DNA from: Streptomyces sp. NBC_01750
GTDB lineage: Bacteria > Actinomycetota > Actinomycetes > Streptomycetales > Streptomycetaceae
Length of the DNA: 64,000 nt
Direction of reading: 5' to 3'
Assembly (NCBI RefSeq): GCF_035918095.1
Contig: NZ_CP109137.1
Coordinates: 744,001-808,000 of the forward strand
Under the pieces are notes generated by a model. The model was given only the letters and a program-made list of their open reading frames with translations, had not been told where the DNA came from and ran no database searches. The translations under genes and the position numbers were made by a program. Below, piece after piece: positions 42,416-63,182 of the stretch. The first letter of the stretch is position 1, and each line of letters begins with the position of its first letter.

Positions 42416-42865
42416 TCAGCCGGTGATCTCGACGCGCCGCGGCCTGGACTTCTCGGTCTTGGGCACGCGTACGGTCAGGACCCCGTCGGCGAGTTCGGCG
42501 GTGACGTGGTCGGCGTCGGCGTCGGCGGGCAGGGCCCACCGGAAGTCGAACCGGCCGAAACGGCGGGTCTGCCGGTGCAGCACGCCGGAGCGTTCCTTCT
42601 CCTCCACCTCGCCGTGGACTGCCAGCCGGGAATCGGTGACATCCACCGTGATCTGGTCCTTGCTGACGCCAGGGAGTTCGAGTTCGACCTGGTAGGCGTC
42701 CTCTGTCTCTTCCTCGTCGGCCGACGGCACCCAGGCGTCGGCGAGCCCACCGCCGCCGGGAACAGCTGACCGCCACAGCTGTCCGAGACGGTCAAAGTGG
42801 TCCTCGAACTCGCGGAAGGAATCCCACAGCGCAGGCAGTGCCTCACGACGGACAGTAAGCGACAT
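42416..42865 (-). CDS. Small heat-shock protein, Hsp20 family
   Basis: 149 aa from ATG 42865, with GGAAGGAG upstream. The alpha-crystallin domain spans about 50-145: YQVELELPGVSKDQITVDVTD, then GEVEEKERSG, a FDFRWALPADAD region, and the C-terminal ADGVLTVRVPKTEKSRPRRVEI. A holdase chaperone that keeps unfolding proteins soluble. It diverges from the second Hsp20 gene, with 525 bp between them. Confidence 0.95.
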   Translation of the reverse strand: MSLTVRREALPALWDSFREFEDHFDRLGQLWRSAVPGGGGLADAWVPSADEEETEDAYQVELELPGVSKDQITVDVTDSRLAVHGEVEEKERSGVLHRQTRRFGRFDFRWALPADADADHVTAELADGVLTVRVPKTEKSRPRRVEITG

Positions 42866-42892
42866 ATTCGATCATCTCCTTCCGAAAAGCAT

Positions 42893-42920
42893 CTGCTCGT
42901 GTCACGCACGTGAAGTTGCC
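42893..42920 (+). repeat. Copy B of the 28-bp direct repeat, containing TCACGCACGTGA
   Basis: Partner of 40430-40457. Here the sequence includes the perfect 12-bp inverted repeat TCACGCACGTGA (5-bp arms, CA spacer), about 40 nt upstream of the Hsp20 start on the minus strand. It could be a heat-shock operator; in copy A the palindrome is imperfect. Confidence 0.4.
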
Positions 42921-43390
42921 ACTCGAAAGACCCCTTGATCGAGGCCTTCTGTTATTACATTTCCGCCCTTTTGATCATTTATTCCTCCACTCCTCGATTC
43001 GCACCGAGGCCTTCATCGCCGTCTCCTGCGTGCCCAGGCAGGCGGCCAGCCCCACGAGTGGACAGGTCATCGTGGGAGCCGGTCCCCGGGCATAGAACCA
43101 GCACGGCGGCCACCCGCCCACAACTTTCCTTCGGAATCTTCCGTTGCCGTCAGACATGAGTTCCCGGCACGGTCTGCGACACCTTGCTCAGCAGCCCTCG
43201 ATACGGATGCCGGCGCCGCGCAGCGACCGGTGCCGCCGCCGCGGCATCCACGGCGGCGACACCGTAATCCGCTCCTGAGCTGGGCTTTCGGATACGTATA
43301 GGTCCAGGCTTGTCAAGTTTTCTTCTTTGGGCTACATAAGTGGCTGTACGGGCATCGACCGGATCCGTCGTTCGGAAGGAGTGACCAGTG
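42921..43390. other. Intergenic region between divergent Hsp20 genes
   Basis: No gene is visible. An AT-rich stretch near 42940-42990 may be the minus-strand promoter region. The plus-strand promoter is described separately at 43310. No CIRCE or HAIR element was recognised. Confidence 0.5.
43310..43338 (+). promoter_or_regulatory. Promoter of the plus-strand Hsp20 gene
   Basis: TTGTCA (43310-43315) and TACATA (43333-43338) are separated by 17 bp, close to the housekeeping-sigma consensus. Transcription would start near 43345, giving a 45-nt leader. Confidence 0.6.
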
Positions 43391-43813
43391 ATGCTCATGC
43401 ACACCGACCCGTTCCGTGAACTGGATCGACTCACCCAGCAGGCGTTTGGCACGAGGTCCTGCCCCACCGTCATGCCGATGGAGGCATACCGCGCGGGTGA
43501 CGACTTCGTGGTCCACTTCGACATCCCGGGTGTCGACCCGGAGACCGTCGACGTCGACGTCGACCGGAACGTCCTCACCGTCCGCGCTGAGCGCCGCTCG
43601 CCGGCACCGGATGGTGCGGAGTTGATCGCGGCTGAGCGCCCGACGGGGACATGCAGCCGCCAGTTGTTCCTCGGCGACAGTCTCGACACCGAGCGGATCG
43701 ACGCCGCGTACGACGCCGGGGTCCTTACGCTCCGCATCCCGGTGGCCGAGCAGGCCAAGCCGCGGAAGATCCAGATCTCGGGCGGCGAGTCTCCAAAGCA
43801 GATTGACGCCTGA
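43391..43813 (+). CDS. hsp18: Small heat-shock protein, Hsp18-like
   Basis: 140 aa from ATG 43391; GTG 43388 is equally open, but GGAAGGAG gives better spacing to the ATG. The beginning ([21 protein letters not shown]) is that of Streptomyces Hsp18. Alpha-crystallin motifs: [29 protein letters not shown], and [22 protein letters not shown] holdase chaperone. In other Streptomyces RheA represses hsp18, but no RheA gene is near. A strong terminator follows. Confidence 0.9.
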
Positions 43814-43827
43814 AACGGGCTGAACCC

Positions 43828-43867
43828 GGCTCCCGGCAGGAGCCCCCGCTTCGCACTGCCGGGAGCC
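43828..43867 (+). terminator. 12-bp stem terminator after hsp18
   Basis: GGCTCCCGGCAG (43828-43839) pairs perfectly with CTGCCGGGAGCC (43856-43867) across a 16-nt loop. It lies 14 nt past the Hsp18 stop. Confidence 0.75.
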
Positions 43868-43964
43868 TGCAGCTGCGGCCCATTTCGTACTCGCACCGCC
43901 CGACATCCTGGTCGGCGCTTTTGGCCTGGAGCTCGGCAGGAGACAGAAAGGAAGGAGACCAGAG

Positions 43965-44357
43965 ATGCGGTGGAGTGAACTCGTGGAGGAAGTGCGCGAG
44001 CGCGGGGAGTACCCCACCACCAAGGAGGCCGAGCGGATCACAAGGATCGTGCTCTCCACACTCGGCGGGCACCTGGCCGGTCCCGAGAGGGCTGATCTGG
44101 TCAAGCGGCTGCCTGCCGAGGCCGCCACGGTCGTTGTCGAGCAGATACCCGCCGTCGAACCGCTGACCGGTGCGCAGTTCGTCGACAGTGTGGCGGCCCG
44201 GATCGATGGAGCCACTCCCGCGACTGCCCTCTGGGACGTCAGCTCGGTCCTGAGTGTGGTGGCGGACGCTGCCGGTGACGAGCTCACGGACCGCATCATC
44301 CACCTGCTCCCGCCCGGATACGCCCTGCTGTTCGGCCGGGCCCAGCTTGCGGCCTGA
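43965..44357 (+). CDS. DUF2267 family protein
   Basis: 130 aa from ATG 43965, with GAAGGAGAC upstream. DUF2267 features: ELVEEVRERGEYPTTKEAERITRIVLSTLGGHLAGPERADLVKRLP, then a second helical half. Compact and all-helical; no catalytic residues. The family often sits in stress or Hsp20 neighbourhoods, as here. Function unknown. Confidence 0.88.
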   Translation: MRWSELVEEVRERGEYPTTKEAERITRIVLSTLGGHLAGPERADLVKRLPAEAATVVVEQIPAVEPLTGAQFVDSVAARIDGATPATALWDVSSVLSVVADAAGDELTDRIIHLLPPGYALLFGRAQLAA

Positions 44358-44546
44358 CCGCCTGCCGCCAGTCGCCTCCGAACTGCGGAAACTGTTCGTT
44401 CAGCCCGCACGCCAGGTGTGCTGGTGCCGGGCGACGACCAGTGAGGTGGTGGCCGGCCTACCACCGCCCACGGGGCGGATCAGCCCCATGGGTCTTGCAG
44501 CTGTACATTTCCTCGTCCATGAGATGGACATTCCTCTCCGAGAGGG

Positions 44547-44831
44547 GTGATGGCGATGTTCCTGTCCGTAGTGTCGTCGGCCCTCAAGAGGTGCGGGCAA
44601 GCCCGGTTGAGGTGCGGGCGGATTTTCGAGCAGTGGGGGGACGCCTTCGAGAGGCGGGGGCAGGGCGTGAAGAGGCCCGGAAGGATCCGGACCACATTGG
44701 ATGACCTGATCACGGATGTGATCCTGCGGCCCCTGCGAGGAAGCTCCGCGCCAGTGAGCACAGTTGGCTCCGTGGAGCAGCGCCCGACGCCGACGCCAGA
44801 GCCGCGTGTGTCCGAACCGGATCAGGGTTGA
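44547..44831 (+). CDS. Small hypothetical protein
   Basis: 94 aa, preceded by GAGAGGGG. The body is basic with regularly spaced Cys, Gln and Arg (LKRCGQARLRCGRIFEQWGDAFERRG), likely an amphipathic helix, and the tail is acidic and Pro-rich. It sits 76 nt upstream of the DoxX gene on the same strand. I do not recognise it and it may not be real. Confidence 0.45.
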   Translation: MMAMFLSVVSSALKRCGQARLRCGRIFEQWGDAFERRGQGVKRPGRIRTTLDDLITDVILRPLRGSSAPVSTVGSVEQRPTPTPEPRVSEPDQG

Positions 44832-44907
44832 GGACCTGACAGGCCCGACCTGCGTGACGTGCGCCCCCGCACATCAGGGGATCACCGGACGTGTGAAGGA
44901 GGAGATG

Positions 44908-45465
44908 ATGACTGTCGGACTCTTGCTCATTCGTGTCGTCGTCGGACTGCTGCTCATCGGGCACGCCACCCAGAAGCTCTTCGGGTGGTTCGGCGGGCAC
45001 GGGCTCGCCGGCACGGGCGCCTTCTTCGACAGCATCGGCTACCGGCCGGGACGTCGCTTGGCCTTTTTGGCCGGCCTCGCCGAGCTGACCGGTGGCCTGC
45101 TGCTGACGCTCGGCCTGCTGACCCCGCTCGCCGCCGCCATCATCATCGGCACGATGATCGCTGCGGCCGCCGTGCACCTGCGTAACGGCCTGTGGGTGCA
45201 GAACGGCGGCTACGAGACCCCGCTGCTCTACGCGGTCACGGCGCTCGGAGTGGCGTTCACCGGCCCCGGCGGCGTGTCGCTCGACCGGCTGTTCGCGCTG
45301 AACTGGCCGTGGCCATACGGCCTCTACGCCGCGGCACTCGGCCTGCTCGCCGCTCTGCCGTTCGTCATGATGCGCCGACTTCGGCCGGCGAAGAAGCCGG
45401 ATCAGCCGCAGCGGACCGATACGCGGCATCCGAAGCAGCGGCTGAAGATCCGTATCCCAGTCTGA
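44908..45465 (+). CDS. DoxX family membrane protein
   Basis: 185 aa from ATG 44908, with AAGGAGG 5 nt upstream. Four membrane segments, beginning LLLIRVVVGLLLIGHATQKLFGWFGGHG, the DoxX signature. By family it is an inner-membrane subunit in quinone/thiosulfate redox or membrane oxidoreductase complexes linked to thiol stress. The C-terminal 25 residues are basic and cytoplasmic. Confidence 0.9.
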   Translation: MTVGLLLIRVVVGLLLIGHATQKLFGWFGGHGLAGTGAFFDSIGYRPGRRLAFLAGLAELTGGLLLTLGLLTPLAAAIIIGTMIAAAAVHLRNGLWVQNGGYETPLLYAVTALGVAFTGPGGVSLDRLFALNWPWPYGLYAAALGLLAALPFVMMRRLRPAKKPDQPQRTDTRHPKQRLKIRIPV

Positions 45466-45667
45466 CCACGACCGGGGCTCCGGTGCCGGAGGTAACGCAT
45501 CTGCCCCGGCACCGGAGCCTGACCCTCGCCGGAGTTCACGGTCTGCTGCGTCACGCAGCCCGTGCGACCGCCACCTGATCCGGTTGGCCGCAGGTGACCA
45601 CGAGGTCGCCGTTGCATCCGACGCAATTCCCCGAGGTCCCGCACGGCCTGGAACATCGTCCACTCAA

Positions 45668-45905
45668 ATGCCGAGCGGCGAGGCGACGGTTTGGGCGAGT
45701 AACCTCCGCAGCCGGTGGGAAGACCTGCTCGTGCACGGCCGCGACTTGCCGGATGACCAGCTCAAGGCCCTGGAGCAGAGGCCCGACTGGTCCTGGAACC
45801 CCCTTCCGCGACGGCCACACCGCGAAGGTTCTCGTGACTGCGGGAGGCGCGACTGCGCAGCGTGGCCGGACGCTCAGTCGATGGCGCGGTGCCACCGCCC
45901 CGTCC
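45668..45905 (+). pseudogene. Helicase-associated-domain fragment
   Basis: SNLRSRWEDLLVHGRDLPDDQLKALEQRPDWSWNPL resembles the repeat unit of helicase-associated domains found in large Streptomyces helicases. Continuation (RDGHTAKVLVTAGG) needs a frame change near 45810. Without flanking repeats or a helicase core it must be a remnant, and the match is from memory of the repeat pattern. The rest of 45466-45997 shows nothing clear. Confidence 0.35.
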
Positions 45906-45997
45906 CGCGCAAGCAGGTCATTTGCTGCACTATGTATCAAATGCTCTCTCATGTAGGGGCAGACCTGCGGGTGATCCGTGAGAGGAAGCCACAGTTC

Positions 45998-47029
45998 ATG
46001 GGCGGCGTAATCCACGATCCTGGCGACGCGGCCGGGCCCGTCCATGAGGCGGCTGCTGTCTCCACCGGCAGCCTGCCCAGTGCGGAAGCGGTGGATGACG
46101 CGCTGTCCGCGGCCTACGCACGGTTTCGGGGCGACACCTCGGGACGCGTGGCGGACTACATTCCCGCTCTGGCCGAGGCCGATCCGCGCCTGTTCGGGCT
46201 CAGCGTCGCCGACGTGCATGGAAGCGTTCGCCAGGCCGGTGACGCCGGCCATCCGTTCTCCATCCAGTCCATCTCGAAGGCGTTCGTGTTCGCCCTGGTG
46301 GACCAGGCCCTCGGGCACGACACGGTCCGGCGGCGGGTGGGGGTCAACAACACCGGCCTGCCGTTCAACTCCATCCTGGCCATCGAACTCAATCACGGCA
46401 GCCCGATGAATCCGATGGTCAATGCCGGCGCACTCGCCACCACGAGCCTGGTCCCGGGAGCGGACGCCGCCGAGCGTTGGGACTTCATCCAGCACGGACT
46501 GTCCCGGTTCGCCGGCCGTGAACTCGACCTGGACATGCGGGTGTACGAGTCGGAGGCTGCCTCCAACCAGCGCAACGAGTCGATCGCCCGGCTGCTCGAC
46601 AGTTACGAGCGCCTCGGCTGGGATCCGATCGAGACCACGGACGTCTACACCAAGCAGTGCTCCCTCTCGGTGACCACCCGCGACCTGGCCATCATGGGGG
46701 CCACCCTCGCCGACGGCGGGGTCAATCCCCTCACCGGCGACCAGGTCGTCGACGCCGCGGTATGCCGCGACACTCTGGCCGCGCTGGCCACCTCCGGCTT
46801 GTATGAGCGCAGCGGCGACTGGCTCTACGAGATCGGCATGCCGGGCAAGAGCGGGGTGTCCGGCGGCATCCTGACCGTCGCTCCCGGCAAGGGCGGGCTG
46901 GCCGCGTTCTCCCCCGGTCTGGACCCGGCCGGCAACAGCGTCCGCGGACAACGGGCGACCCACTACCTGTCCGGCGCGCTGGGCCTCAACCTCTTCGCAT
47001 CCGCCCCGTACCTGAGATCCGAAGACTGA
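45998..47029 (+). CDS. glsA: Glutaminase (glutamine amidohydrolase)
   Basis: 343 aa from ATG 45998, with AGAGGAAG 9 nt upstream; the longer open frame back to 45584 is remnant sequence. The serine-lysine catalytic motif is in FSIQSISKAFVFAL. Also PFNSILAIELNHGSPMNPMVNAGA, and KQCSLSVTTRDLAIMGATLADGG. It hydrolyses glutamine to glutamate and ammonia, and in other bacteria supports acid resistance. It is set in a stress-gene neighbourhood. Confidence 0.95.
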   Translation: MGGVIHDPGDAAGPVHEAAAVSTGSLPSAEAVDDALSAAYARFRGDTSGRVADYIPALAEADPRLFGLSVADVHGSVRQAGDAGHPFSIQSISKAFVFALVDQALGHDTVRRRVGVNNTGLPFNSILAIELNHGSPMNPMVNAGALATTSLVPGADAAERWDFIQHGLSRFAGRELDLDMRVYESEAASNQRNESIARLLDSYERLGWDPIETTDVYTKQCSLSVTTRDLAIMGATLADGGVNPLTGDQVVDAAVCRDTLAALATSGLYERSGDWLYEIGMPGKSGVSGGILTVAPGKGGLAAFSPGLDPAGNSVRGQRATHYLSGALGLNLFASAPYLRSED

Positions 47030-47418
47030 GAGGGCGTTTCGTCCCGTCGACCCCGCCCGCCCGCCCCGGAGAACTCACGCCGATGACGGCTCAGCACGCC
47101 GTCCGTCAGGGCAGGACCGCCGCGCACAACGTCGCCGCCTCCTGCGGCCACGGCGACCGCCGCCCCGGAACCATTGCATGATGGACGGGCAGGACCGTCA
47201 GCAGCTCCTGCCCGAATATCAAGCGGAAGTCGGCCGGCCATGAGTCAGCATGTTCACGTCCGCTTCAACCACGGCCTGGCCGTGTCCCAGGACGGCGATC
47301 TGATCGAGCAGTCCGCTGCCGGTGCGGCGCCAACTGGACCAGGACGTTCCAGGCAGCGGAGGGCGATCCCGAGGGTTGACTCTCCGAGGCGGGCATCCGG
47401 ACCCGGGAGGAGGCGGCC
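47030..47418. other. Gap without a recognised gene
   Basis: A short plus-strand frame at 47174-47422 has no ribosome site and an unnatural-looking product. Nothing can be supported here, except the ribosome site of the ligase gene at the end. Confidence 0.4.
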
Positions 47419-48441
47419 ATGAGTGCCGGACTGCTGGACCGGCTGCCCGTGGAACAACGAGACCGCCTGCGCTGCCCGCCACCGGACGGGCACGCGGTGG
47501 ACCGGCCGATGCTGGCCGTGCTCAGCGACCGGCGGACCTTCGACGGTGGCTGGCTCTTCGAACGCAAACTGGACGGCGAACGTGCCCTCGGACTGCGCGG
47601 CCATGACCGCGTTCAGCTCCTCTCCCGCAATGGCCTGCCCCTCAATGCCACCTACCCCGAGCTCGCCGCCGCCCTGGCGGAGCAGGAGTGCTCCGACTTC
47701 ACCGTGGACGGCGAGATCGTCGCACTCCGTGACGGCCGCACCGACTTCTCCCTCCTGCAACGAAGGATGCAGCTCACCGACCCGCGCACGGCCCTGGCCA
47801 GCGGGGTCCCCGTCGTCTACTTCCTGTTCGACCTGCTCCGGCTGGACGGCTGCGACACCACCCGGCTGCCGCTGCGCACCCGGAAGCAGCTGCTGCGCAG
47901 CGCCTTCGAGTTCCGCGGACTGCTGCGCTTCACGCCGCACCGCAACCATGGCGGGCAGGAGCTACTGGACCAGGCGTGCGCCCGCGGCTGGGAGGGGCTG
48001 ATCGCCAAGCGCGCCGACTCGGTCTACGTCGCCAGACGGTCGTCCGACTGGCTCAAGCTCAAGTGCGCCGCCGGGCAGGAGTTCGTCATCGGCGGCTTCA
48101 CCGAGCCAACCGGCAGCCGGGCCGGCTTCGGCGCGCTGCTGCTGGGCTACTACGACGGCGGGCGCCTGCGCTACGCAGGCAAGGTCGGTACCGGCTTCGA
48201 CCGGGCCACCCTGCTCGATCTGCGCCGCCGCCTGGAGGCTCTGCGGCAGTCGCGTTCCCCGTTCGAGGCGGGGCCCGAGATACGGGAACGCGGCGCGCAC
48301 TGGGTGCGTCCGGAGCTGGTCGCCCAGATCGGCTTCACCGAGTGGACCCGAGACGGCAGGCTGCGGCACCCCCGCTTCCTCGGCCTCCGATTCGACAAGA
48401 AGCCCACCGACGTGGTGCGCGAGGTGCCCGCCTCCGGCTGA
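47419..48441 (+). CDS. ATP-dependent DNA ligase (LigC/LigD type)
   Basis: 340 aa from ATG 47419, with GGGAGGAGG upstream. The adenylation domain has the motif I lysine at 50 (ERKLDGER), motif III/IIIa DFTVDGEIVAL and VYFLFDLLRLDG, motif IV WEGLIAKR, and motif V WLKLKC. An OB-fold C-terminus follows (GGFTEPTGSRAGFGALLLGYYDG). This is the stand-alone ligase arm of bacterial NHEJ. No Ku, polymerase or nuclease domain is adjacent, so it may act with Ku encoded elsewhere. Confidence 0.93.
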   Translation: MSAGLLDRLPVEQRDRLRCPPPDGHAVDRPMLAVLSDRRTFDGGWLFERKLDGERALGLRGHDRVQLLSRNGLPLNATYPELAAALAEQECSDFTVDGEIVALRDGRTDFSLLQRRMQLTDPRTALASGVPVVYFLFDLLRLDGCDTTRLPLRTRKQLLRSAFEFRGLLRFTPHRNHGGQELLDQACARGWEGLIAKRADSVYVARRSSDWLKLKCAAGQEFVIGGFTEPTGSRAGFGALLLGYYDGGRLRYAGKVGTGFDRATLLDLRRRLEALRQSRSPFEAGPEIRERGAHWVRPELVAQIGFTEWTRDGRLRHPRFLGLRFDKKPTDVVREVPASG

Positions 48442-48579
48442 CGGCCGAGAGAGACGATCGACGAACACCTCGCCAATCGAAAAGACCTCAGGGCCCGTGT
48501 GCCCTCGTCCATGGCCCCGTTGCTGCCCTAGGGACCGTGGTCCGCGGTTCCTTCGGAGACGTCAGAGGAGCTGGTCGAA

Positions 48580-49029
48580 TCAGAGGAGCTGGTCGAAGAC
48601 GGCCCGGACCTCGTTCCAGTGGCGGGTCTGCGGATTCTTCAGATCCGGGTGGAGAATCTTGAACGTCTGGGCGAGGGCCAGGCTCAGCCCGCCGATGATC
48701 TCCGGGTACGCCGCCTCCGTCTCCTCGTCGGGCGCGCGGTCCAGGAGGGGATGCGTGGCGAGCTGATCGAGGATCGGCTTCAGCTCGATCTCGTGGTCGA
48801 GCTTCCTGAAGCCGTGGATGCTTTCCTGCAATCCCTTGGTGATCGGCAGATCGTGCTTCTGTACGACGTCCCGGCCGTTCGCCTTGGCGGTCGCCTGGGC
48901 GACGAGCAGGAGATCGTAGAGCTTGGCGTCGACGAACTCGCCATAGCGCTTGAGATCGTTCTTGTCGACATCGAGTCCAGCCGCCATGCGGAAGAACCTC
49001 TCGAACCGGGACACGGACATCACAGGCAT
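48580..49029 (-). CDS. DUF1931 protein with predicted tandem histone folds
   Basis: 149 aa from ATG 49029, with GGAGG 8 nt upstream. Helix patterns match two histone-fold halves: SRFERFFRMAAGLDVDKNDLKRYGE with KLYDLLLVAQATAKANGRD, then ELKPILDQLATHPLLDR with ALAQTFKILHP. The one DUF1931 structure I recall, from Aquifex, is a pseudo-dimeric histone fold. Whether this one binds DNA is unknown; it is unusually acidic for that. It is convergent with the DNA ligase gene. Confidence 0.85.
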   Translation of the reverse strand: MPVMSVSRFERFFRMAAGLDVDKNDLKRYGEFVDAKLYDLLLVAQATAKANGRDVVQKHDLPITKGLQESIHGFRKLDHEIELKPILDQLATHPLLDRAPDEETEAAYPEIIGGLSLALAQTFKILHPDLKNPQTRHWNEVRAVFDQLL

Positions 49030-49164
49030 GACTCGAACCTCCACGATCGGAACTGCGCCGGATGCGGCGCTCCCTCTCCACACCAGCCTCGCCGATGGGG
49101 CACGGCGCAATATGCCCATGTGGTGACGAAAGGACCCCGTCGATCTGTGCTGCCGGGGTGAGAC

Positions 49165-49325
49165 TCAGCTCGCGCTTCTCGTCCCGGATTCCGCCCGGCG
49201 CTTGCGCAGCGCTCTCAGCAGCCTCAGCGGGAACAGTCCGATGAGCGGGGCGCGACGGCCCAGGTCCTCGCTGTCCTCGCGGTCGAAGGCGCCGGCGTAG
49301 CGCTTGGCAGCGCGGTACCGCCGTG
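49165..49325 (-). pseudogene. Truncated copy of the zinc-ribbon ORF at 60312
   Basis: Reading the minus strand gives KRYAGAFDREDSEDLGRRAPLIGLFPLRLLRALRKRR, very like the C-terminal half of the protein at 60312-60578. The N-terminal cysteine part is missing and no start codon with a ribosome site is present. Both copies are on the same strand and flank PsiE and the chaperone operon. Confidence 0.75.
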
Positions 49326-49370
49326 TCAAAAGCGCCCCGTGCCGATGTGCCGCAGTGGTGGAGCTATTGT

Positions 49371-49847
49371 TCAGCCGCTGCGATCTTGACCTGTCGGTGC
49401 GGTGCCGCCGGAACGGCGCCAGATGTAAATGGCCAGCGCCATGACGAGAATCAGCCCGATCAGGATCAGAAGCTCAACACCCTGCACATTCCACTGGAAC
49501 GACTTGTCTGCCTCGGCGGTGACAATGAGCACCTTTCGAACCCCCGCGATCATACCGACCACGAGGAACGGCTCGGCGTCCAGCGTGCGGTTTCTGATGG
49601 TGAGCCGCACGGTGTGCAGAAGTTCGGCCACAATGAACAGGATCAAGCTGTTGTCCAACGCGGACAGCACCACCACTTCCTCGCGGTACGGGCCCTGGAT
49701 CGCTTGTACGACATCGCCCACCACCCCGATCGTGAGCAGGATCGAAAGCAGCACGAGAAGCGCCGCGACGATCAGGTGAATGCCGTCCTCAGCGTTCTTC
49801 AGAAGATTTTGGACGCGTTTTTCGAAGGTGCGGGCGAACTCTGACAC
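49371..49847 (-). CDS. psiE: PsiE-family membrane protein
   Basis: 158 aa. Four membrane segments (HLIVAALLVLLSILLTIGVVGDVV, then DNSLILFIVAELLHTVRLTI, EPFLVVGMIAGVRKVLIVTA and GVELLILIGLILVMALAIYIW). PsiE was named as phosphate-starvation inducible in E. coli, and is a component of transmissible heat-resistance loci. The role is unknown. It lies 124 nt below the stop of the chaperone operon, on the same strand. Confidence 0.85.
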   Translation of the reverse strand: MSEFARTFEKRVQNLLKNAEDGIHLIVAALLVLLSILLTIGVVGDVVQAIQGPYREEVVVLSALDNSLILFIVAELLHTVRLTIRNRTLDAEPFLVVGMIAGVRKVLIVTAEADKSFQWNVQGVELLILIGLILVMALAIYIWRRSGGTAPTGQDRSG

Positions 49848-49971
49848 ACACGTAATCTATGCCCCCCGCGTCGATCGCTCCGCATTGCCGGCCCGTCACG
49901 GCGAGCCGTCAATGACCGGACGGACACCGGCCTCACGGGGACGGGCCACCGGCCTCACGGCGGGCCCCGGG

Positions 49972-51687
49972 TCAGCTCGTTCCGGCCGCGCCGCCGGGCC
50001 TCCCGAAGTAATGGTGGGCCAGGTGGATGGCCATCGCTCCCTCGCCGACGGCCGAGGCGACCCGTTTCACCGATCCGCTGCGGACGTCGCCCGCCGCGAA
50101 CACCCCTGGCAGGCTGGTCTCCAGAGGCAGGCAGCCCCGGCCACGGGATTCCCACACCCCCGGGACCGCGCACGCCTCCGCCTCGCGGCCGGTGAGGACG
50201 AAACCCCGGCTGTCCAGGGCCGGCCCGCCCATGAGCCAGGCCGTGCAGGGCTGTGCCCCGATGAAGAGGAAGAGGGCGCGGGCGTCCAGCGAACGGCGTT
50301 CCGCCGTACGGTTGTCCTCCACCACGAGCCCATCGAGCGTCTCCTTGCCGATGACCTCACGGACCTCGGTGTTGCGCAACACCTGGACGCGCGCGTGGCG
50401 TTCGACCTGGTCGACCAGGTATCGCGACATGTTCGCCCCGAGGTCGTCGCCCCGGACGACCAGATACACGCGGGGCGAGTAGTCCGCGAGGAAGAGGACG
50501 GCCTGGCCGGCCGAGTTGCCGCCCCCCACGACGGCAACCGGGTCCATACGGCACTCCAGGGCCTCGTAGACGGTCGCCGCGTAGTAGACGCCGGTTCCTT
50601 CCAGGCGTTCGATCCCCGGGACGGGGAGCCTGCGGTAGCGGGCACCAGTGGCGAGGATGACGCTGTGCCCGGCGGCCTGGCTGCCGTCGGCGAAGGTGAC
50701 CCGGTAGTGGCCGTCGTGGCTCTCCAGCGCGGTCGCGTCCGCCGGGACGGTGATCCGTGCGCCGAACTTGTGCGCCTGGATCACGGCGCGGTCGGCGAGT
50801 TCGGCTCCGGAGATCCCCGAGGGGAACCCCAGGTAGTTCTCGATCCGGGAGGACGTGCCCGCCTGGCCGCCGGTGGCGATCGCGTCGACGACGGTGGTGT
50901 CCAGCCCCTCCGACGCCCCGTAGACGGCGGACGCCAGCCCCGCGGGCCCCGAGCCGATGATGAGCAGGTCTCCGACACTCTCGTCGAACGCGGGGGTGGG
51001 CAGGCCGATGAGCCGGGCGAGTTCGGCGTTGCTGGGATTGCGCAGCATCTGCTCCTCACGCCAGATCACGATCGGCGTTTCCTCCGGGGTGATGCCGAAG
51101 CGACGCAGCAGCGCCTCGGCCTCCCGGTCGGTCTCCAGGTCGACCCAGCGGTGCGGGAGCCGGTTGCGGGCGGCGAACTCCCGGAGCCTGCGGGTGTCGG
51201 GCGAGTAGCGCGATCCGAGGATGCGGAAGCCCGCGCCCTGGCCGACGAGCAGGCTCCGGCGGGCCAGATAGGCGCGGAGAATGACATCGCCGATGACGGG
51301 ATCTTCGGCCACGAGCCGCCGGAGCCGGTCGACCGGGATGGACAGCACCTCTCCGGAGTCACGTACCCGTGCGGTGGAGAAGGCCGCCTGCCCCTGCAGG
51401 AGTCCGAGTTCGCCGAGGAAGCGGCCGGGCCCGTGCACCCTGATGATGTGCTCGTCGGGAGTGCCGTAGGAGTCCAGGATGACGACGGAGCCACTGAGGA
51501 TGACCAGGAACTCCCCGCAAGGCCGGCCCTCTTGGAACAGGACCTCACCGGCCTCGACGGGGCGCCGCTCCCCGTGCCGGGCGAGGAATTCGATCTGTTC
51601 GGGCGTCAGCCGGGGGAAGGCCCCGTGGCGATCGGGGGTCTCGAAGGGTACGGCCTCGGGTTCCGGGGCGGTGTCGTGATCCGTCAT
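49972..51687 (-). CDS. cNMP-binding FAD oxidoreductase (thioredoxin-reductase-like, no redox cysteines)
   Basis: 571 aa. Residues about 25-150 form a cyclic-nucleotide-binding domain (SGSVVILDSYGTPDEH). About 155-230 look like a thioredoxin/glutaredoxin fold whose CxxC position is occupied by RYSPDT. The rest is a thioredoxin-reductase-type module: IIGSGPAGLASAVYGASEG, TGGQAGTSSRIENYLGFP (where the CxxC of true reductases is absent), AVVGGGNSAGQAVLFLAD, and FAAGDVRSGSVKR. Electron transfer would have to go to an external acceptor. It shares one base with the zinc-finger stop. Confidence 0.9.
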   Translation of the reverse strand: MTDHDTAPEPEAVPFETPDRHGAFPRLTPEQIEFLARHGERRPVEAGEVLFQEGRPCGEFLVILSGSVVILDSYGTPDEHIIRVHGPGRFLGELGLLQGQAAFSTARVRDSGEVLSIPVDRLRRLVAEDPVIGDVILRAYLARRSLLVGQGAGFRILGSRYSPDTRRLREFAARNRLPHRWVDLETDREAEALLRRFGITPEETPIVIWREEQMLRNPSNAELARLIGLPTPAFDESVGDLLIIGSGPAGLASAVYGASEGLDTTVVDAIATGGQAGTSSRIENYLGFPSGISGAELADRAVIQAHKFGARITVPADATALESHDGHYRVTFADGSQAAGHSVILATGARYRRLPVPGIERLEGTGVYYAATVYEALECRMDPVAVVGGGNSAGQAVLFLADYSPRVYLVVRGDDLGANMSRYLVDQVERHARVQVLRNTEVREVIGKETLDGLVVEDNRTAERRSLDARALFLFIGAQPCTAWLMGGPALDSRGFVLTGREAEACAVPGVWESRGRGCLPLETSLPGVFAAGDVRSGSVKRVASAVGEGAMAIHLAHHYFGRPGGAAGTS

Positions 51688-51950
51688 CAGACCAGCGCCT
51701 CATGGACGAAGCACCACCGCCAGTCCTCTCCCGGTTCCATGGAGGCCACGATGGGGTGGGCCACAGTTCCGGCGTGGGCGCGGGCGTGCCTGAGGGGCGA
51801 GGAGTCGCAGCAGCCGACATGGCCGCAGGTGAGGCAGACCCGCAGATGCACCCAAGGGGAGCCGATGCGCAGACATTCCTCGCAGCCCTCGGGGGTACGA
51901 GGGGTGACCGGGCGCACCATGGCCAGATGCGGGTCGGCATGGGTTGCCAT
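51687..51950 (-). CDS. UBP-type zinc-finger protein
   Basis: 87 aa from ATG 51950, chosen for its spacing to GGAGG; ATG 51956 overlaps the thioredoxin stop as ATGA and is the alternative. The zinc ligands CEECLRIGSPWVHLRVCLTCGHVGC, then HARAHAGTVAHPIV, match the UBP (ZnF-UBP) pattern. In eukaryotes this fold binds ubiquitin C-termini; bacteria lack that, so its ligand is unknown. It sits between thioredoxin and a reductase-like gene. Confidence 0.88.
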   Translation of the reverse strand: MATHADPHLAMVRPVTPRTPEGCEECLRIGSPWVHLRVCLTCGHVGCCDSSPLRHARAHAGTVAHPIVASMEPGEDWRWCFVHEALV

Positions 51951-51952
51951 GG

Positions 51953-52407
51953 TCATCCTCCATTCGCGATGCTGCGGCCGGCTGTGGCCTCTTCGACCCA
52001 GGAGCGCAGCGTGGGGGCGGGTGCGGCGCCGGTCTTCCGGTCGGCCACAACCCCCTTGTCCATGATCAGCAGGGTGGGGACGGCCTGGATCTGGAACCGC
52101 TGCGAAAGATGGGGGTTCTGATCGATGTCGACCTTGACGAGCTTGATCGTGCCTGCGAGGTCCTTGGCGACCTGTTCGAGTGCCGGGCTGACCATCCGGC
52201 AGGGGGCGCACCAGGTGGCCCAGAAGTCGATGAGTACGTACGGTGTGGCCTTCTCCGCGATCTCGGCGAAGTTGTCGTCGCCCGCGTCCACGATCCAGGG
52301 CAGCGGCGCGCCGCAGTTGCCGCACTTGGGCTGGCCCTCCCCCGCCGCGGGCACACGGTTCTTTCGCCGGCACTTCTCGCAGGCGACGATCCTGCTCTCC
52401 ATCCTTC

Positions 52408-52411
<4 letters not shown>
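51953..52411 (-). CDS. Thioredoxin with N-terminal zinc ribbon (Trx2/TrxC type)
   Basis: 152 aa from GTG 52411, which overlaps the clpB stop as GTGA, so translation is coupled. The N-terminal ribbon is CEKCRRKNR...CGNCG. The thioredoxin fold has the active site [14 protein letters not shown] disulfide reductase, likely keeping client cysteines reduced under stress. Position inside the chaperone operon suggests redox rescue of unfolded proteins. Confidence 0.92.
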
Positions 52412-55040
<2,629 letters not shown>

Positions 55041-55050
<10 letters not shown>

Positions 55051-55400
55051 GGAAGTTGATCACTCCTCGTGCCGCTGCGCCGCAGCGCGGCTTCGAGCAG
55101 GCTGATGCGCTCGAGCAGGTCGAGCACCAGGCCGATGGATGCATAGTTGAGGTTGAGTCCGGTACGGAGCCGCTGGATACGGGCGAGGGTCGCCGGTGCG
55201 GACGGCGGGAACACCAACTGCCCCGCGGCGTCGCGATGGGCGTCGACCAGGCCGAGCGCGACGAACCGGCGGATCAGATCGGGGTGGAGGCGCGAGCGGC
55301 GTGCGACGCCGTCCAGGCCGAGCGCCGGGACGGGCACCATGGCGTAACGGACGACCGTCGTGTTCCGGGCCGCTGCGGAGGTCGGATGATGGGTGCTCAT
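55041..55400 (-). CDS. cbpM: CbpM-like chaperone-modulator (MerR fold)
   Basis: 119 aa. It has a winged-helix-like core ([39 protein letters not shown]) and a C-terminal coiled coil ([23 protein letters not shown]), as in CbpM, which binds and inhibits the J-domain of CbpA. HspR is the related transcription factor in other Streptomyces dnaK operons and is an alternative; the position after a CbpA gene favours CbpM. It overlaps the cbpA stop by 4 bp. Confidence 0.78.
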
Positions 55401-56341
55401 CGTTGCTTCCTCGGGTCGAAGGAGGAGGTGGCGGCGAGCTCCTCGAACAGCTCCCGCTCGCGGTCGGTGAGCTTGGGCGGCACCATGATGCGGAGCTCCG
55501 CGTACAGGTCGCCGTTCGCGCCGCGCGGGTTCGGCATGCCCTCACCGCGCAGCCGGAGGCGGCGGCCGCTGGAGGAGCCCGCGGGGACGGTGACCTTCGC
55601 GGTGCCGCCGGGGGTGGGGACGGGGACCGTGGCGCCGAGCGCGGCCTCCCAAGGGGCGACGGGAAGCTGGACGTTGACGTCCCGGCCCTCGAGCCGGAAC
55701 TGCGGGTGGGGCTGGATCCGTACGCGCAGATACAGGTCGCCGCGCGGGGCGTCGCCGCTGCCATGGCCGCCCTGCCCCGACAGACGGATGCGCTGCCCGT
55801 CGACGACACCGCGGGGGACGTTGACGTCGAAGGTGCGCTGTCCCCCGGGACCGGCGAGGGTGATGCTGCGCTTGCCCCCGCGATAGGCGTCCTCGACGGT
55901 GAGGGGGAGTTCGGCCTCCTGGTCGGCGCCGGGTACGGGGCCGCGGGCACCGCCGGCTCCGAAGAGACCGCCGAACAGGTCCTCGAAGTCGATGCCGCCT
56001 CCGGCGTCGCCGCCCCTGACGTACCGGACGCGGGGTCCGCCTTCTCCGCCGGCCGCACCTCCCCAGCCGCCGAATCCGGCGCCCGCGCCGGCGGCCACCC
56101 GTTCGTCGTAGTCCTCGGGGATCTGCCGGAAGTCCTCGCCGAAGCGGTCGTAGCGGGCACGGGTCTCGGGGTCGGAGAGCACGGAGTACGCCTCGTTGAG
56201 GTCCTTGAAGCGCTCCTCGGCCCCGGGGTCCTTGTTCACATCGGGGTGGTACTTACGGGCCAGTGTGCGGAAGGCCTGCTGGATCTCGTCCTGGCTCGCG
56301 CCCCGCGACACTCCCAACACCTCGTAGTAGTCCCGTGCCAT
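55397..56341 (-). CDS. cbpA: DnaJ-family co-chaperone, CbpA type
   Basis: 314 aa. J-domain at 1-70 ([24 protein letters not shown] at about 32-34). A Gly/Phe-rich linker of about 60 residues follows. The C-terminal substrate domains begin [16 protein letters not shown]; there is no zinc finger, unlike DnaJ proper. It stimulates DnaK ATPase. The gene is separated from grpE by 6 nt. Confidence 0.95.
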
Positions 56342-56347
56342 GGACGT

Positions 56348-56920
56348 TCACTCCCGCCGTTTGCCCACGGTAACCGCGACAGGCCGCAACTGGCGTTCCG
56401 CCTCCCCGTATCCGGGGCGCATGACCTTCGCGACGGTCCCGGGCTCGACGTCCGGGTCGTCCACCACGCCGACCACCTCGTGCCGGGAGGGGTCGAAGGG
56501 CACACCCGTCTCGGCATGCCGCTCGTACCCCAGCCGCCCGAGGATGGCCACGGCCTGGTCGTGGACGGCCTTGACGCCCTCCACGATGGCTCCGGGATCG
56601 GAGTCGGCGTGGGACAGGGCCAGTTCGAGGCCGTCCAGGATGGGCAGCAGTGCGGCGGCGGTACTGGCCCGCTCCGAGGCCCGCTCCCGGTCGAGCTCCT
56701 TGGCGTGGCGCTTGCGCAGATTCTCGATGTCGGCGAGGGCACGCCGCCAGCGGTCCTGGAGCTCGTCCAGGGCCGTCGCGTGGTCGTCCGTGGGCCGGGG
56801 CTCAGGCCTGGTGGACGCCGCCTCCGCCGTAGCCTCCTGCAATTCCTGCAGTTCCTGCTGTTCCTGCTGCGGCGGGGCGTCGGCGCCTTCCGGCTCGGGG
56901 TGCTGGGGGTGGGTGGTCAC
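56348..56920 (-). CDS. grpE: GrpE nucleotide-exchange factor
   Basis: 190 aa. An acidic Gln/Glu-rich N-terminus precedes a long helix (ELQDRWRRALADIENLRKRHAKELDRERASE), the GrpE dimer stalk, and the beta-wing domain (GYERHAETGVPFDPSRHEVVGVVDDPDVEPGTVAKVMRPGYG). It releases ADP from DnaK. It lies 9 nt after dnaK. Confidence 0.95.
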   Translation of the reverse strand: MTTHPQHPEPEGADAPPQQEQQELQELQEATAEAASTRPEPRPTDDHATALDELQDRWRRALADIENLRKRHAKELDRERASERASTAAALLPILDGLELALSHADSDPGAIVEGVKAVHDQAVAILGRLGYERHAETGVPFDPSRHEVVGVVDDPDVEPGTVAKVMRPGYGEAERQLRPVAVTVGKRRE

Positions 56921-56929
56921 GGGACCGCC

Positions 56930-58828
56930 TCAGCTCTTGTCGAACTCGGCGTCGACGACATCCTCGTCGTCGGAGCCGCCCGCGCTCGTGGGCCCGGCCT
57001 CCCCCGCGACGGGTCCGTCGGCCGAGGTTCCGCCCCGCTGGGCCGCGGCCAGCCCGGCGTAAATCTGCTGGAGCTCGGACGTGAGCGGCCGGACCTTGTC
57101 GGGTCCCGCTTCGTCCTTGACCAGCTGGCGGGCTTCGGTGATCAGCATCTCGGCACGGGAGCGCTCGTGCGACGGCGCGGCTTCGCCGAGTTCGTCCAGC
57201 CGACGCTCGACCTGGTACGCGACGGCGTCCAGCTCGTTGCGGGCGTCCACCGCCTCACGCAGTGCCTGGTCCTCACCACGGTTGCGCTCGGCCTCCGCGA
57301 CCATCCGCTCGACCTCGGCGGGGTCGAGGTTCGAGCCCTCGGAGATGGTGATGCCCTGCTCCTTGCCGGTGTCCTTGTCGCGTGCGGTGACATTGAGAAT
57401 GCCGTTGGCGTCGATGTCGAAGATGACCTCGACCTGCGGTTCGCCACGGGGGGCGGGGCGGATGTCGGTCAGCTGGAAGCGACCGAGGACGCGGTTGTCC
57501 GCGGCACGCTCACGCTCGCCCTGGAGGACGACGACATCGACGGCGGGCTGATTGTCCTCTGCGGTGGTGAAGGTCTCGCTGCGGCGGACGGGAATGGTCG
57601 TATTGCGCTCGATGATCTTCGTCATCAGACCGCCCCGGGTCTCCACGCCCAGCGACAGCGGCGTGACGTCGAGCAGCAGGACGTCCTTGACCTCGCCCTT
57701 GAGCACCCCGGCCTGGATCCCGGCGCCCATGGCCACGACCTCGTCGGGGTTGACGCTCATATTGGGGTCCTTGCCGCCGGTGAGCTTGCGGACGAGGTTC
57801 TGCACGGCGGGGATCCGGGTGGAACCGCCGACGAGGATGACCTCGTCGATATCGTTCTCGCTGATCTTGGCGTCGCCCATCGCCTGCTTCACCGGGTCCA
57901 TGGTCCGTTCGACGAGATCGGCGGTGATCTGTTCGAACGTGGACCGCATGACCGACATGGTCAGATGCTTGGGCCCGGAGGCGTCAGCGGTGATGAACGG
58001 CAGACTGACCTGCGTCTGCGTCACCGAGCTCAGTTCGACCTTGGCCTTCTCCGCGGCCTCGAAGAGCCGCTGCAGCGCCTGTGGGTCATTGCGCAGGTCG
58101 ATACTGTTCTCCTGCTTGAAGTTGTCGGCCAGATGGTCGACGAGCCGGCGGTCGAAATCGTCACCGCCGAGGTGGCTGTCGCCCGCGGTGGAGCGCACCT
58201 CGACCACGCCGTCACCGACGTCCAGGATGCTCACGTCGAAGGTGCCGCCGCCGAGGTCGAATACGAGCACGGTCTCGTGCCCCTTCTTGTCCATCCCGTA
58301 GGCCAGCGCCGCCGCGGTGGGCTCGTTGATGATCCTGAGTACTTCGAGCCCGGCGATACGCCCGGCGTCCTTGGTCGCGGTGCGCTGGGCGTCGTTGAAG
58401 TACGCGGGCACGGTGATGACCGCTTCCGTCACGCGCTCGCCGAGCTGCTTGCCCGCGTCGTCGGCGAGCTTGCGCAGGATCTGTGCGCTGATCTCCTCCG
58501 GCGAGTACAGCTTGTCGCCCACCTTGAACCGCGCGACACCGCCCTCGCCCTCGACCACGTCGAACGAGACAGCCTTGGCCTCGTCGGAGATCTCGTCGTA
58601 GTGCCGGCCGATGAACCGCTTGGCCGAGTAGATGGTGCCCTTGGGGTTGAGGATGGCCTGGCGGCGGGCCATTTGCCCCACCAGGCGTTCCCCGCTGTCG
58701 GTGAAGGCGACGACGGAGGGGGTCGTGCGGGTCCCCTCGGCATTCGGTATGACCGTGGGTTCACCGCCCTCCCATGCGGCGATCACCGAGTTGGTGGTGC
58801 CGAGGTCGATTCCGACTGCCTTGCCCAT
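56930..58828 (-). CDS. dnaK: DnaK (Hsp70) chaperone
   Basis: 632 aa. Nucleotide-binding domain: [52 protein letters not shown], and [14 protein letters not shown]. The substrate domain begins about 385 ([14 protein letters not shown]), and an acidic DEDVVDAEF tail ends the protein. It forms the core of the operon with GrpE, CbpA and ClpB. The organism probably has a second, standard dnaK operon elsewhere. Confidence 0.98.
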
Positions 58829-58888
58829 GGAGAACTCCTTGCCCTGGCTGCCGTCGGCATCTGCCGATGCCGGGCGGCAACGGTTCTG

Positions 58889-59380
58889 TCAGGTGATGGC
58901 CCCTTTGTCGGGGGCGCCCGTCACACGCCGCAGGCCGGCGATGAGCTGCTCGGCCTCCTCGGCCACCTCCGTGTCCACCTCGATGTCGTACCGGGTGGGC
59001 TGCATCGTGCTGATCGAAGCGAAATCACGGCGTCCGCCCTGTAGGGCGTACAGCAGCAGCCCCAGCAGGGCGCCCACGATCGCTCCGAAGATCAGCCCGT
59101 AGAGAGCGAGCAGCAACCCGGCGACCACCGGGTCGAGCCAGTTGAGAAGGCCGAAGATCCACCCGATGAGCGCACCCGGGAGCGCGCCGGCGGCGGCGCC
59201 GTGCAGTGCCGCCCTGCCGTAGTCCATCCGGCCGACGACCTGCTCCACCAAGCGCACGTCCTGCCCGACGATCGCCGTCCGCTCCACGGGGAATCCCTGG
59301 TCGGACAGGTGATCGACGGCGCGTTCCGCTTCGGCGTACGTCCCATAGGAAGCAACTGTCCGGCGAGGCTGATCAGCCAT
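58889..59380 (-). CDS. YflT-domain/DUF1269-like general stress membrane protein, first gene of the chaperone operon
   Basis: 163 aa from ATG 59380, with GGAGAGG upstream. The N-terminal YflT-like part is RRTVASYGTYAEAERAVDHLSDQGFPVERTAIVGQDVRLVEQV. Two Gly/Leu-rich membrane segments (GAAAGALPGALIGWIFGLLNW; LLLALYGLIFGAIVGALLGLLL) follow, then a soluble tail. Such proteins are stress-induced with unknown roles. It is 60 nt before dnaK. Confidence 0.82.
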   Translation of the reverse strand: MADQPRRTVASYGTYAEAERAVDHLSDQGFPVERTAIVGQDVRLVEQVVGRMDYGRAALHGAAAGALPGALIGWIFGLLNWLDPVVAGLLLALYGLIFGAIVGALLGLLLYALQGGRRDFASISTMQPTRYDIEVDTEVAEEAEQLIAGLRRVTGAPDKGAIT

Positions 59381-60311
59381 CGGCCTCTCCTTCGGTGTCG
59401 GTGCACGAAAGCGTCGGCGCCTGTGAGGGTTCGCAGGTACTGTTCCGTCCAGCCTGTCTCCTGAGGGGCCCTCGGTGCCTGATCCTGCTGGGTCGAAATT
59501 CCCTCCAGCGGTCCGCCTGCGGGCACGGGGGCTACTGGGTCGCGGCCTTGTGAAGGCCTTCCGAGGGGTCGGCCCGACGGGCGTCCGGCGGTGGCTCCTG
59601 GCGGCGCCGGCCTGCGGACCGCGGGGTCGCTCGACCTCTCCCCGCCTGTACTTCTCGGCCGGGCTCCGGCCACGGCACAGCTCGCCGGCCACCTCACAGC
59701 TCGCGAGCCGGACCGGAAGAGCGGTCGTCGATCACGCAACCGGCCAATGGTCGGCGAGGCTGCCGTGCCACACGCTGCCGGACCGGGGCCGGCCCGCATC
59801 CGCACCCGGGCGCCCACGAAGGCGCGGGGAGCATGGCCGTCAGGATGCCGGCCGCCCCTGTCTCAGGCAGCGCTGTGCACAGCGTCGCAAGCGGGCGACC
59901 CCGGCGCCTGCCCCTGGCAGAGCCAAGATGCGTCCGGCACTCCACCCGCGGGCGCAGGGCACGGCGCCGGAGCGGGCACGTCCGGGACCTCCTGCGCCCA
60001 GCGGGAAGTCCCGGGAACGGCCACAGCGCCCGTACCCGGGACGGTGCGTGGCTCCCTCGGAGAGATCCGCGCGACCGAGAACCCAACTCTCAGCGGGTAC
60101 CGGACTCCTCGAAATGACTAAAGTATGACAAGGCCGTCATCTCACTGCAGCCGCCTCTCGCTGCGGCTCTATGGGGATGTGAGGTGAGGGCGTGCCCCCG
60201 GACCGGCCCGCCCGGGATCGCCGTCGACGCGCCGTTCTCGGTGAAAACCGCCTGGTGGAAAGCCTGAAGGCTGCCGAGGACGCCATCGCGACGCACGACG
60301 AGCACGACGCG
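59381..60311. other. 931-bp region upstream of the chaperone operon, no recognised gene
   Basis: Very GC-rich; long open frames on both strands lack ribosome sites and family features. An AT-rich patch near 60110-60135 (GACTAAAGTATGACAAGGCCGTCA) is the best promoter-like sequence, but it lies some 730 nt from the first gene. No CIRCE (GAGCACT) or HAIR (CTTGAGT) element was seen. Confidence 0.5.
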
Positions 60312-60578
60312 TCAGCGCGTCGGCCCCGAAGCTCGCTTGTGGCGGCGCATGCGCAGAGCCCGGTACAGCCGCAGCGGGAAGAGCCCCACCAGCGGAGCGC
60401 GGCGGCCGAGATCCTCACTGTCCTCATGATCGAAGGCGCGAGCGTAGCGCTGTGCGTCCTCCGCGGACGGATAACTCTTGGTTCCTCCCGCGCCGCAGCC
60501 GCGTACGCACTGCCAGTGCATGGTGTCGCCGTCGCTGGAGAAGCGAAAGCGATGGCCGAGAAGGCGGCAGCGCAGCAT
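60312..60578 (-). CDS. Small conserved zinc-ribbon-like protein
   Basis: 88 aa. The N-terminus has paired cysteines (MLRCRLLGH and WQCVRGCGAGGTKSYPSAEDAQRYA), probably binding a metal. The C-terminus is a conserved block, FDHEDSEDLGRRAPLVGLFPLRLYRALRMRR. A truncated relative is at 49165-49325. Function unknown. Confidence 0.78.
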   Translation of the reverse strand: MLRCRLLGHRFRFSSDGDTMHWQCVRGCGAGGTKSYPSAEDAQRYARAFDHEDSEDLGRRAPLVGLFPLRLYRALRMRRHKRASGPTR

Positions 60579-60659
60579 GGCTCACCAGCCTATTCGGAGC
60601 GAGGCATTCCGGCGTGTCCGGCCGCCCCATGACCGCGACCACACGTGGGGGTTGAGAGC

Positions 60660-63132: not shown

Positions 63133-63182
63133 ACCGGGCTTGCGCCGGCGATCGCGGCCGGGCCCACGCCGGTCCGGCGCCA

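Follow-up and report, generated by a model that had tools for sequence, protein, structure and literature searches.

The transmissible locus of stress tolerance (tLST) is described as a mobile general-stress locus occurring mainly in proteobacteria, with dna-hsp20-clpG as its core block (PMC8290217). Another set of chaperone parts is found in Thermus, where the tags TTHA1491 (DnaK), TTHA1489 (DnaJ) and TTHA1488 (DafA) are given in one source (PMC3125180) and TTHA1487 (ClpB) in another (PMC7054433); DafA is reported to inhibit both DnaK and DnaJ (PMC3125180), and to form a K3J3A3 complex with them from which it is expelled by substrate (PMC3727329). In actinobacteria, the gene for HspR is placed in the dnaJ operon (PMC4063869). 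Here we analyse a stretch of 64,000 nucleotides (hereafter the window) from the 9.0 Mb genome of Streptomyces sp. NBC_01750 (contig NZ_CP109137.1, positions 744,001 to 808,000), whose minus strand carries at 49972-58828 a single operon, dnaK-grpE-cbpA-cbpM-clpB-trx-zf-UBP-flavoprotein, with a YflT gene in front of it. We consider it likely that this is an accessory operon which actinobacteria can acquire by horizontal transfer and use for protein disaggregation, the putative function being read from well-known protein families. By its parts the operon is of the Thermus kind, by its lifestyle it is tLST-like. Among the papers listed by our literature searches, no title or abstract start describes it as a unit.

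Parts of the operon and their closest relatives

Pfam confirmed every gene that the original prediction had named in the region 42416-59380. The operon, its candidate control elements and the stress genes discussed together with it are the following:

61342..63132, plus strand: divergently oriented regulator of the PucR/CdaR type (HTH_30, GGDEF_2-like)
59905..59918, minus strand: GCCAGGnGCAGGCG, conserved motif upstream of dnaK, candidate operator or promoter element
58889..59380, minus strand: YflT-domain general stress protein (PF11181; the open frame extends to 59692, start chosen by inspection)
56930..58828, minus strand: DnaK (Hsp70), 632 aa (PF00012; TIGR02350 above cut-off)
56348..56920, minus strand: GrpE (PF01025)
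55397..56341, minus strand: CbpA/type II DnaJ, 314 aa (PF00226 and PF01556, DnaJ and DnaJ_C domains only)
55041..55400, minus strand: CbpM/DafA-like co-chaperone modulator, MerR-type, 119 aa (PF13591, MerR_2)
52408..55050, minus strand: ClpB disaggregase, 880 aa (TIGR03346, 1360 bits, cut-off 1232)
51953..52411, minus strand: thioredoxin of the thioredoxin 2 type with zinc ribbon and WCAPC (PF00085 above cut-off; zinc ribbon PF21352 at 21.0 bits, under its cut-off)
51687..51953, minus strand: small zf-UBP protein (PF02148)
49972..51687, minus strand: flavoprotein with cyclic nucleoside monophosphate (cNMP)-binding and thioredoxin-reductase-like domains, without CxxC, 571 aa (PF00027, PF07992)
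48580..49119, minus strand: DUF1931 histone-fold protein, linked accessory (PF09123)
43388..43813, plus strand: Hsp20 small heat-shock protein (PF00011)
42416..42865, minus strand: Hsp20 small heat-shock protein (PF00011)

Judged by sequence comparison, the closest known set of parts is the Thermus DnaK-DnaJ-DafA-ClpB set and not the tLST. The best match of ClpB in the Protein Data Bank (PDB) is 1qvr (1053 bits), above 6dju (1012 bits); CbpA matches 6psi best ('DnaJ 2', 212 bits), by a small margin over 3lz8 (206) and 4j80 ('DnaJ 2', 204), and the CbpM profile matches only the CbpM structure 3ucs (1.2e-6) and, weakly, the DafA structure 9dvi (0.0052). We take 1qvr, 6psi and 9dvi to be structures from Thermus thermophilus. 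Shared with the Thermus DnaK-GrpE-DnaJ-DafA-ClpB set are a type II DnaJ without zinc finger, a gene for a small DafA/CbpM-like protein following the J-protein gene (the DafA match being weak), and the DUF1931 protein, whose best PDB match 1wwi is TTHA1479; with tags reaching from TTHA1479 to TTHA1491, the same parts thus lie within 13 tags in Thermus. The Thermus genes presumably stand in the order written here, and the set is presumably chromosomal. The island differs from it in being accessory and, in relatives, plasmid-borne, and in adding the thioredoxin 2, the zf-UBP protein, the cNMP flavoprotein and the divergent PucR-type regulator.

The E. coli CbpA-CbpM pair resembles the island in that a type II J-protein is followed by a MerR-fold modulator, the profile match being 3ucs; in the island, however, the pair is embedded in a dnaK-clpB operon, and its CbpM lies far under the CbpM equivalog cut-off (27 versus 138). 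With the Streptomyces core dnaK-grpE-dnaJ-hspR operon and clpB, the island has in common the chaperone logic and a MerR-fold gene accompanying the J-protein gene, but its DnaK and ClpB share only 55-59% protein identity with the core proteins, and the core has HAIR-like boxes, which the island lacks (see below). Elsewhere in the source genome, the core dnaK is located at 4.85 Mb of contig C1 (55% to island DnaK), and a third DnaK (56%) is encoded on the same chromosome arm as the island (C1:562527-564254, at 562 kb) together with a GrpE-like gene (31% to the island copy); a further Hsp70-like match lies within an 817-aa frame at C1:578030.

Like the tLST, the island is a mobile accessory (as seen in its relatives), combines Hsp20, a Clp disaggregase and thioredoxin, supplies extra copies of core-type chaperones, and has PsiE near the window copy. 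This grouping, together with an occurrence on plasmids and chromosomes as for the tLST, might suggest a true member of the tLST/locus of heat resistance (LHR) group, a reading which we regard as very improbable. The unfoldase is ClpB by its equivalog cut-off and reaches only 794 and 799 bits with the ClpK/ClpG models, whose cut-off is 1900; the island has the DnaK-dependent type of disaggregase and a full K/J/E set where the tLST has a stand-alone ClpG/ClpK. None of FtsH, YfdX, HdeD and KefB was found among the 20 window proteins scanned (some small frames lay outside the scan), and the block dna-hsp20-clpG was absent among the scanned genes. PsiE, which had been put forward as a point of analogy, adjoins the operon in only 3 of 113 distinct loci (assembled as described below) and is therefore incidental. 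Membership in the tLST was accordingly rejected on the ClpB and ClpG/ClpK scores, and the earlier statement that the locus uses ClpB and not ClpK, with no FtsH, YfdX or KefB seen, was borne out.

Distribution, gene order and descent

Of 150 genus genomes searched, 26 contained a cbpM gene at E<1e-30, with 64-79% identity (own copy apart); some cbpM match was present in 79 of the 150, the other 53 being weak and 24-41% identical. In a sample of the phylum, 7 of 396 genomes contained it (E<=1e-12). Among 72,556 plasmid records it occurred in 21, namely 15 of Rhodococcus (several of which, being equal in length, look like near-duplicates), two each of Streptomyces and Nocardia, and one each of Gordonia and Arthrobacter. 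All six plasmids inspected carry dnaK-grpE-cbpA-cbpM-clpB in the same order; in the Gordonia plasmid copy IS3 elements follow clpB, and in the plasmid copy of Streptomyces sp. NBC_01001 the zf-UBP gene was neither listed nor detected. Phage carriage was considered and rejected: none of the 69 matching phage records covers 80% of the block from dnaK to clpB, coverage in the five listed does not exceed 31%, and we interpret these matches as conserved chaperone genes with a different origin.

Gene order was compared in 119 loci (26 loci of 24 genus carriers, 6 from plasmids, 80 from named genomes, being the best 80 of at least 126, 6 from the phylum sample, and the window), of which 113 were distinct after removal of exact duplicates; one carrier on a short contig (G028) was left out, and the flanks were of limited extent, so that counts of neighbours are minima. 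The operon genes detected keep their order in all 113 distinct loci. The five core genes from dnaK to clpB are all present on the same strand in 109 and all eight genes were detected in 87, with zf-UBP present in 100 and the flavoprotein in 91; of the four loci without the full five, two lie on short contigs (L129, L131), one has a broken clpB match (L059) and one is that of G435 (L163). A PucR-type homologue occurs in 80 loci, in 77 of them divergent upstream of dnaK, whereas the remaining neighbours are less frequent: YflT in 47, any Hsp20 in 42, DUF1931 in 33 and DUF2267 in 18. In the source genome, two of the three Hsp20 matches and the sole DUF1931 match lie in the window; together with an order kept in 113 of 113 loci, this indicates a grouping of genes that exceeds chance.

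Between plasmids of different genera of one order the DNA identity of the operon is high. The Gordonia and N. farcinica copies share 96.4% DNA identity over dnaK-clpB and 98.8% over the adjacent 2.4 kb, the Rhodococcus PD04 plasmid is 94.4-94.6% identical to these two, and Rhodococcus YL-1 89.3-91.9% identical to all three; the nearest yardstick available is rpoB, for which two genera from the same family in the sample share 84.6-84.9% identity. Island ClpB stands at 83-93% to the window copy in 25 genus copies and at 79.5-83.9% in five genomes outside the family, in and beyond the class. Core ClpB, compared with the source genome's own core copy, reaches 87-91% in four genus genomes; of those five genomes from other families, the three that share the class have 68-69% and the two from beyond it 60-65%. 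Identity outside the family is thus far higher for island ClpB than for core ClpB, and a slow clock alone is insufficient for both. Island distances correlate weakly with RpoB distances within the genus (r=0.27, 324 pairs) and more closely over all 464 pairs (r=0.76). In the RpoB tree G134 and G071 are sisters, whereas in the island tree G134 groups with G042 and G071 is found elsewhere, the conflict lying at starred branches. One locus without a ClpB frame (L059) was excluded from the distance and tree work, the RpoB frames include some unaligned N-terminal letters, and tree columns were those filled in at least 30% of rows.

A number of observations weigh against horizontal transfer of the operon or restrict its scope. 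The window operon has about 74% DNA identity to all four copies named above (two of Rhodococcus, one each of Gordonia and Nocardia), and the 26 genus copies form one clade (support 99), so that recent transfer between orders is not shown; the trees themselves are quick searches with support from the Shimodaira-Hasegawa-like approximate likelihood ratio test (SH-aLRT) only. No integrase was seen among the window proteins scanned, a subset of the frames, no tRNA was found within the window (on which ground a tRNA-anchored integration was rejected), and the guanine-cytosine (GC) content of the operon matches the rest of the window; mobility of the window copy is hence argued from its relatives only. 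Many of the loci and plasmids are related and the counts therefore are not independent, and G435 shows only cbpA, cbpM and trx, with no clpB between.

The single genus clade, which is separate in the tree from the island copies found in another family and in other classes, the modest identity between orders and the native GC content would also suit an old second chaperone operon of actinobacteria, inherited vertically and lost from most lineages. We hold this to be unlikely, since it is at odds with the excess similarity of island over core ClpB outside the family, with distances that barely track RpoB within the genus and with the starred tree conflict, as well as with the 94-96% DNA identity among the Gordonia, Nocardia and Rhodococcus PD04 plasmid copies. 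The original prediction had proposed a census of Streptomyces genomes against strain phylogeny; as carried out here, it reveals a patchy presence and an island tree in conflict with RpoB, and these two results, taken with the plasmid carriage, exclude a gene order universally conserved as core genome. The locus being accessory and horizontally moving is thus supported, with mobility seen in relatives, and the earlier view of an accessory, moving locus independent of the tLST stands.

Regulation, proposed mechanism and extent of the island

No HspR-associated inverted repeat (HAIR) was detected in the window with three mismatches allowed, while the positive control gave three HAIR-like boxes at the core dnaK and clpB region; boxes of the controlling inverted repeat of chaperone expression (CIRCE) were likewise missing from the window, and control by HspR or HrcA was rejected on these grounds. 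The motif TTGA-N11-TCAA was absent from the 900 bp upstream of dnaK in all 115 loci searched (duplicates included). By contrast with a background of 0.22 sites per 1.5 kb derived from downstream sequence, which corresponds to about 23 loci by chance, GCCAGGnGCAGGCG with up to two mismatches was found upstream of dnaK in 81 of the 115 (search span 1.5 kb, 2.6 kb in the window). Columns outside its 14 selected letters are conserved in 47 non-redundant sites, so the motif may be part of a promoter. In 12 of the 81 motif rows no PucR homologue is present in the stretch of the locus covered, and the regulator thus need not bind the motif, which also counts against our proposal.

The redox tail is uniform in its thioredoxin, WCxPC and the zinc-ribbon pattern being found in all 106 relatives from the loci. 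In the flavoprotein (49972-51687) a cNMP-binding domain and a thioredoxin-reductase-like domain are combined with what, by inspection, is probably a thioredoxin fold. Its CxxC is missing from all 96 relatives (rows including duplicates), 95 of which have other letters and one a gap, and alignment to solved thioredoxin reductases shows the window protein to be without it as well; a single cysteine further on (residue 379) is conserved in 95 of the 96. The predicted structure is weak (mean predicted local distance difference test score, pLDDT, 68; predicted template modelling score, pTM, 0.48). To judge from these alignments, the flavoprotein is not a canonical thioredoxin reductase, which corrects the earlier label of redox partner.

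The operon probably encodes a disaggregase that works with its own partners, is kept in reserve by CbpM and stands outside HspR control. At rest, a CbpM of the CbpM/DafA type would tie up CbpA, and via CbpA also DnaK, in an inactive complex. Aggregates would be held by the Hsp20 proteins under stress, CbpM would be released by substrate or heat, and DnaK-CbpA-GrpE would pass the aggregates on to the cognate ClpB to be threaded and refolded. Mis-formed disulfides may be reduced by thioredoxin 2, the cNMP-domain flavoprotein probably serving as a sensor or NAD(P)H-linked partner and not as a true thioredoxin reductase. What governs expression is probably either the divergent regulator of PucR type or the GCCAGGnGCAGGCG-bearing promoter, in which case the machine would act beside, and not under, the core HspR regulon.

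As relatives reside on plasmids and the flavoprotein has a cNMP domain by which a signalling nucleotide might be sensed, we also considered that the island might serve in anti-phage or other defence and not as a general stress locus. This has hardly any likelihood in our judgement: PADLOC, run on nine proteins, returned nothing for seven and only AAA-domain and cNMP-domain similarity for two, and the reading was rejected for want of a specific match.

The remaining features around the operon are:

63140-63724: DDE_3 transposase-type fragment
60645-61283: partial MFS transporter gene, between the operon and the PucR-type regulator
49371..49847, minus strand: PsiE family membrane protein, loose neighbour (PF06146)
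47419-48441: ATP-dependent DNA ligase (Pfam)
45584-47029: glutaminase (Pfam)
44764-45465: DoxX (Pfam)
43965..44357, plus strand: DUF2267, occasional neighbour (PF10025)
37987-38202: partial DUF1275 gene
6332-6814: HTH_33, transposase-type helix-turn-helix fragment

DoxX and glutaminase adjoin the operon in a single distinct locus each, the window itself, and the DNA ligase does so in two; these three and PsiE are local neighbours, and the 18 kb as a whole is not supported as one conserved unit, within the limited flanks compared. Over 1.3 kb the ligase block (47157-48472) shares 96.4% identity with Actinacidiphila soli (L128), where it too adjoins the operon, whereas the operon itself is 79% identical, which indicates a separate, more recent exchange of the ligase block. 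Such neighbours, hardly met elsewhere and in the case of the ligase with a history of their own, could prompt one to see in the region a chance pile-up of stress genes that are unrelated to one another and form no functional unit, situated on a chromosome arm. We give this almost no credence for the operon, whose order is constant throughout the distinct loci and to which DUF1931 is tied in 14 of 15 genomes; the pile-up reading holds just for the 44-48 kb stretch.

The range first assigned to the island, 42416-60578, was right for the operon and wrong in its bounds: the island starts further in on the left and reaches further out on the right, where its edge should take in the PucR-type regulator (61342-63132). 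The flanking pseudogenes and insertion sequences (IS) reported earlier are there as partial MFS and DUF1275 genes, but the IS are fragments only (HTH_33 and DDE_3, which we take to be IS630-type) and are not accompanied by a tRNA. Further to the left, at 17250-33564, several AMP-binding genes (acyl-CoA ligase type) lie with genes for enoyl-CoA hydratase, nitronate monooxygenase and ChsH2-type OB-fold proteins, in what looks like a catabolic or lipid-related cluster. Overall, the original observation was right and its interpretation half right, the locus being a mobile stress-type operon, not tLST-like in its parts.

The DUF1931 histone-fold protein

The most interesting lead of this analysis is DUF1931. 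The window protein matches PF09123 with 195 bits (cut-off 21.8), and DUF1931 was detected in 15 of the 150 genus genomes, 14 of which are among the 26 operon carriers (Fisher p=7e-12, uncorrected for kinship). This count includes one carrier with a 40-residue piece only (G109) and the single non-carrier, whose match is a partial copy with two stop codons (G078); 12 of the 26 carriers are without DUF1931. In 13 of the 14 carriers the gene lies at most 14 kb from cbpM, and in the 14th on another contig. In the phylum sample DUF1931 occurs in 8 of 396 genomes, five of them among the seven with cbpM, and in six of the eight the stretch examined also contains a gene for an Hsp20, a ClpB/ClpG-type protein or DnaK; of the other two, one (G332) has only the flavoprotein nearby and one (G205) nothing.

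The linkage extends to plasmids, where 16 of 22 records with DUF1931 are cbpM records; by listed positions the two genes are at most 11 kb apart in 15 of these 16, and near opposite record ends in NZ_CP118330. Five of the six DUF1931 records without cbpM were opened. On Trichormus variabilis plasmid C, typed conjugative, DUF1931 stands with dnaK, thioredoxin, hsp20 and groESL (2052-9429, L196), on Nostoc p057_B near groEL and hsp20, and on an Azospirillum plasmid near groES, groEL, dnaK and clpB (grpE by tblastn only). On an Aquicella plasmid the DUF1931 match is partial and lies close to two hsp20 genes and a Tn3 transposase, and on R. jostii pRHL1 the island queries gave no chaperone match near DUF1931.

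Beyond the class, DUF1931 follows an Hsp20-like and a Clp gene in two genomes, G160 and G189. In the former (L206, 4507-10831) the genes for an Hsp20, a ClpG-like unfoldase, DUF1931 and a ClpP-like SDH protease stand in a row with a sigma-70 gene nearby, and in the latter (L207) matches to hsp20-like, Clp and DUF1931 genes lie at corresponding places. The Clp protein of G160 aligns over its full length with ClpG, including the N-terminal extension, and scores 1000 bits against the cut-off of 1900, being under the ClpB cut-off too.

DUF1931 proteins are described as being without the usual DNA-binding residues (PMC11390915, PMC12701072), and the stem 'chaperon' is absent from the main texts of PMC11390915 and PMC10627809. 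DUF1931 probably is an accessory of the same pathway as the operon. A broader idea, which we put forward tentatively and to which we give slightly less than even weight, is that the DUF1931 pseudodimeric histones are accessory factors of disaggregases (ClpB with DnaK, or ClpG-like) and not chromatin proteins, spread by plasmids across several phyla, and that among such mobile modules of proteostasis the actinobacterial operon represents one family, with a regulator of its own.

Soil actinobacteria appear to exchange a complete Hsp70-Hsp100 machine together with its J-protein modulator and a redox tail, among other ways on plasmids of Rhodococcus, Gordonia and Nocardia, in parallel to the tLST but with other parts. 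For a bacterial histone-fold family, the linkage of DUF1931 with chaperone genes offers a concrete and testable hypothesis of a role in proteostasis.

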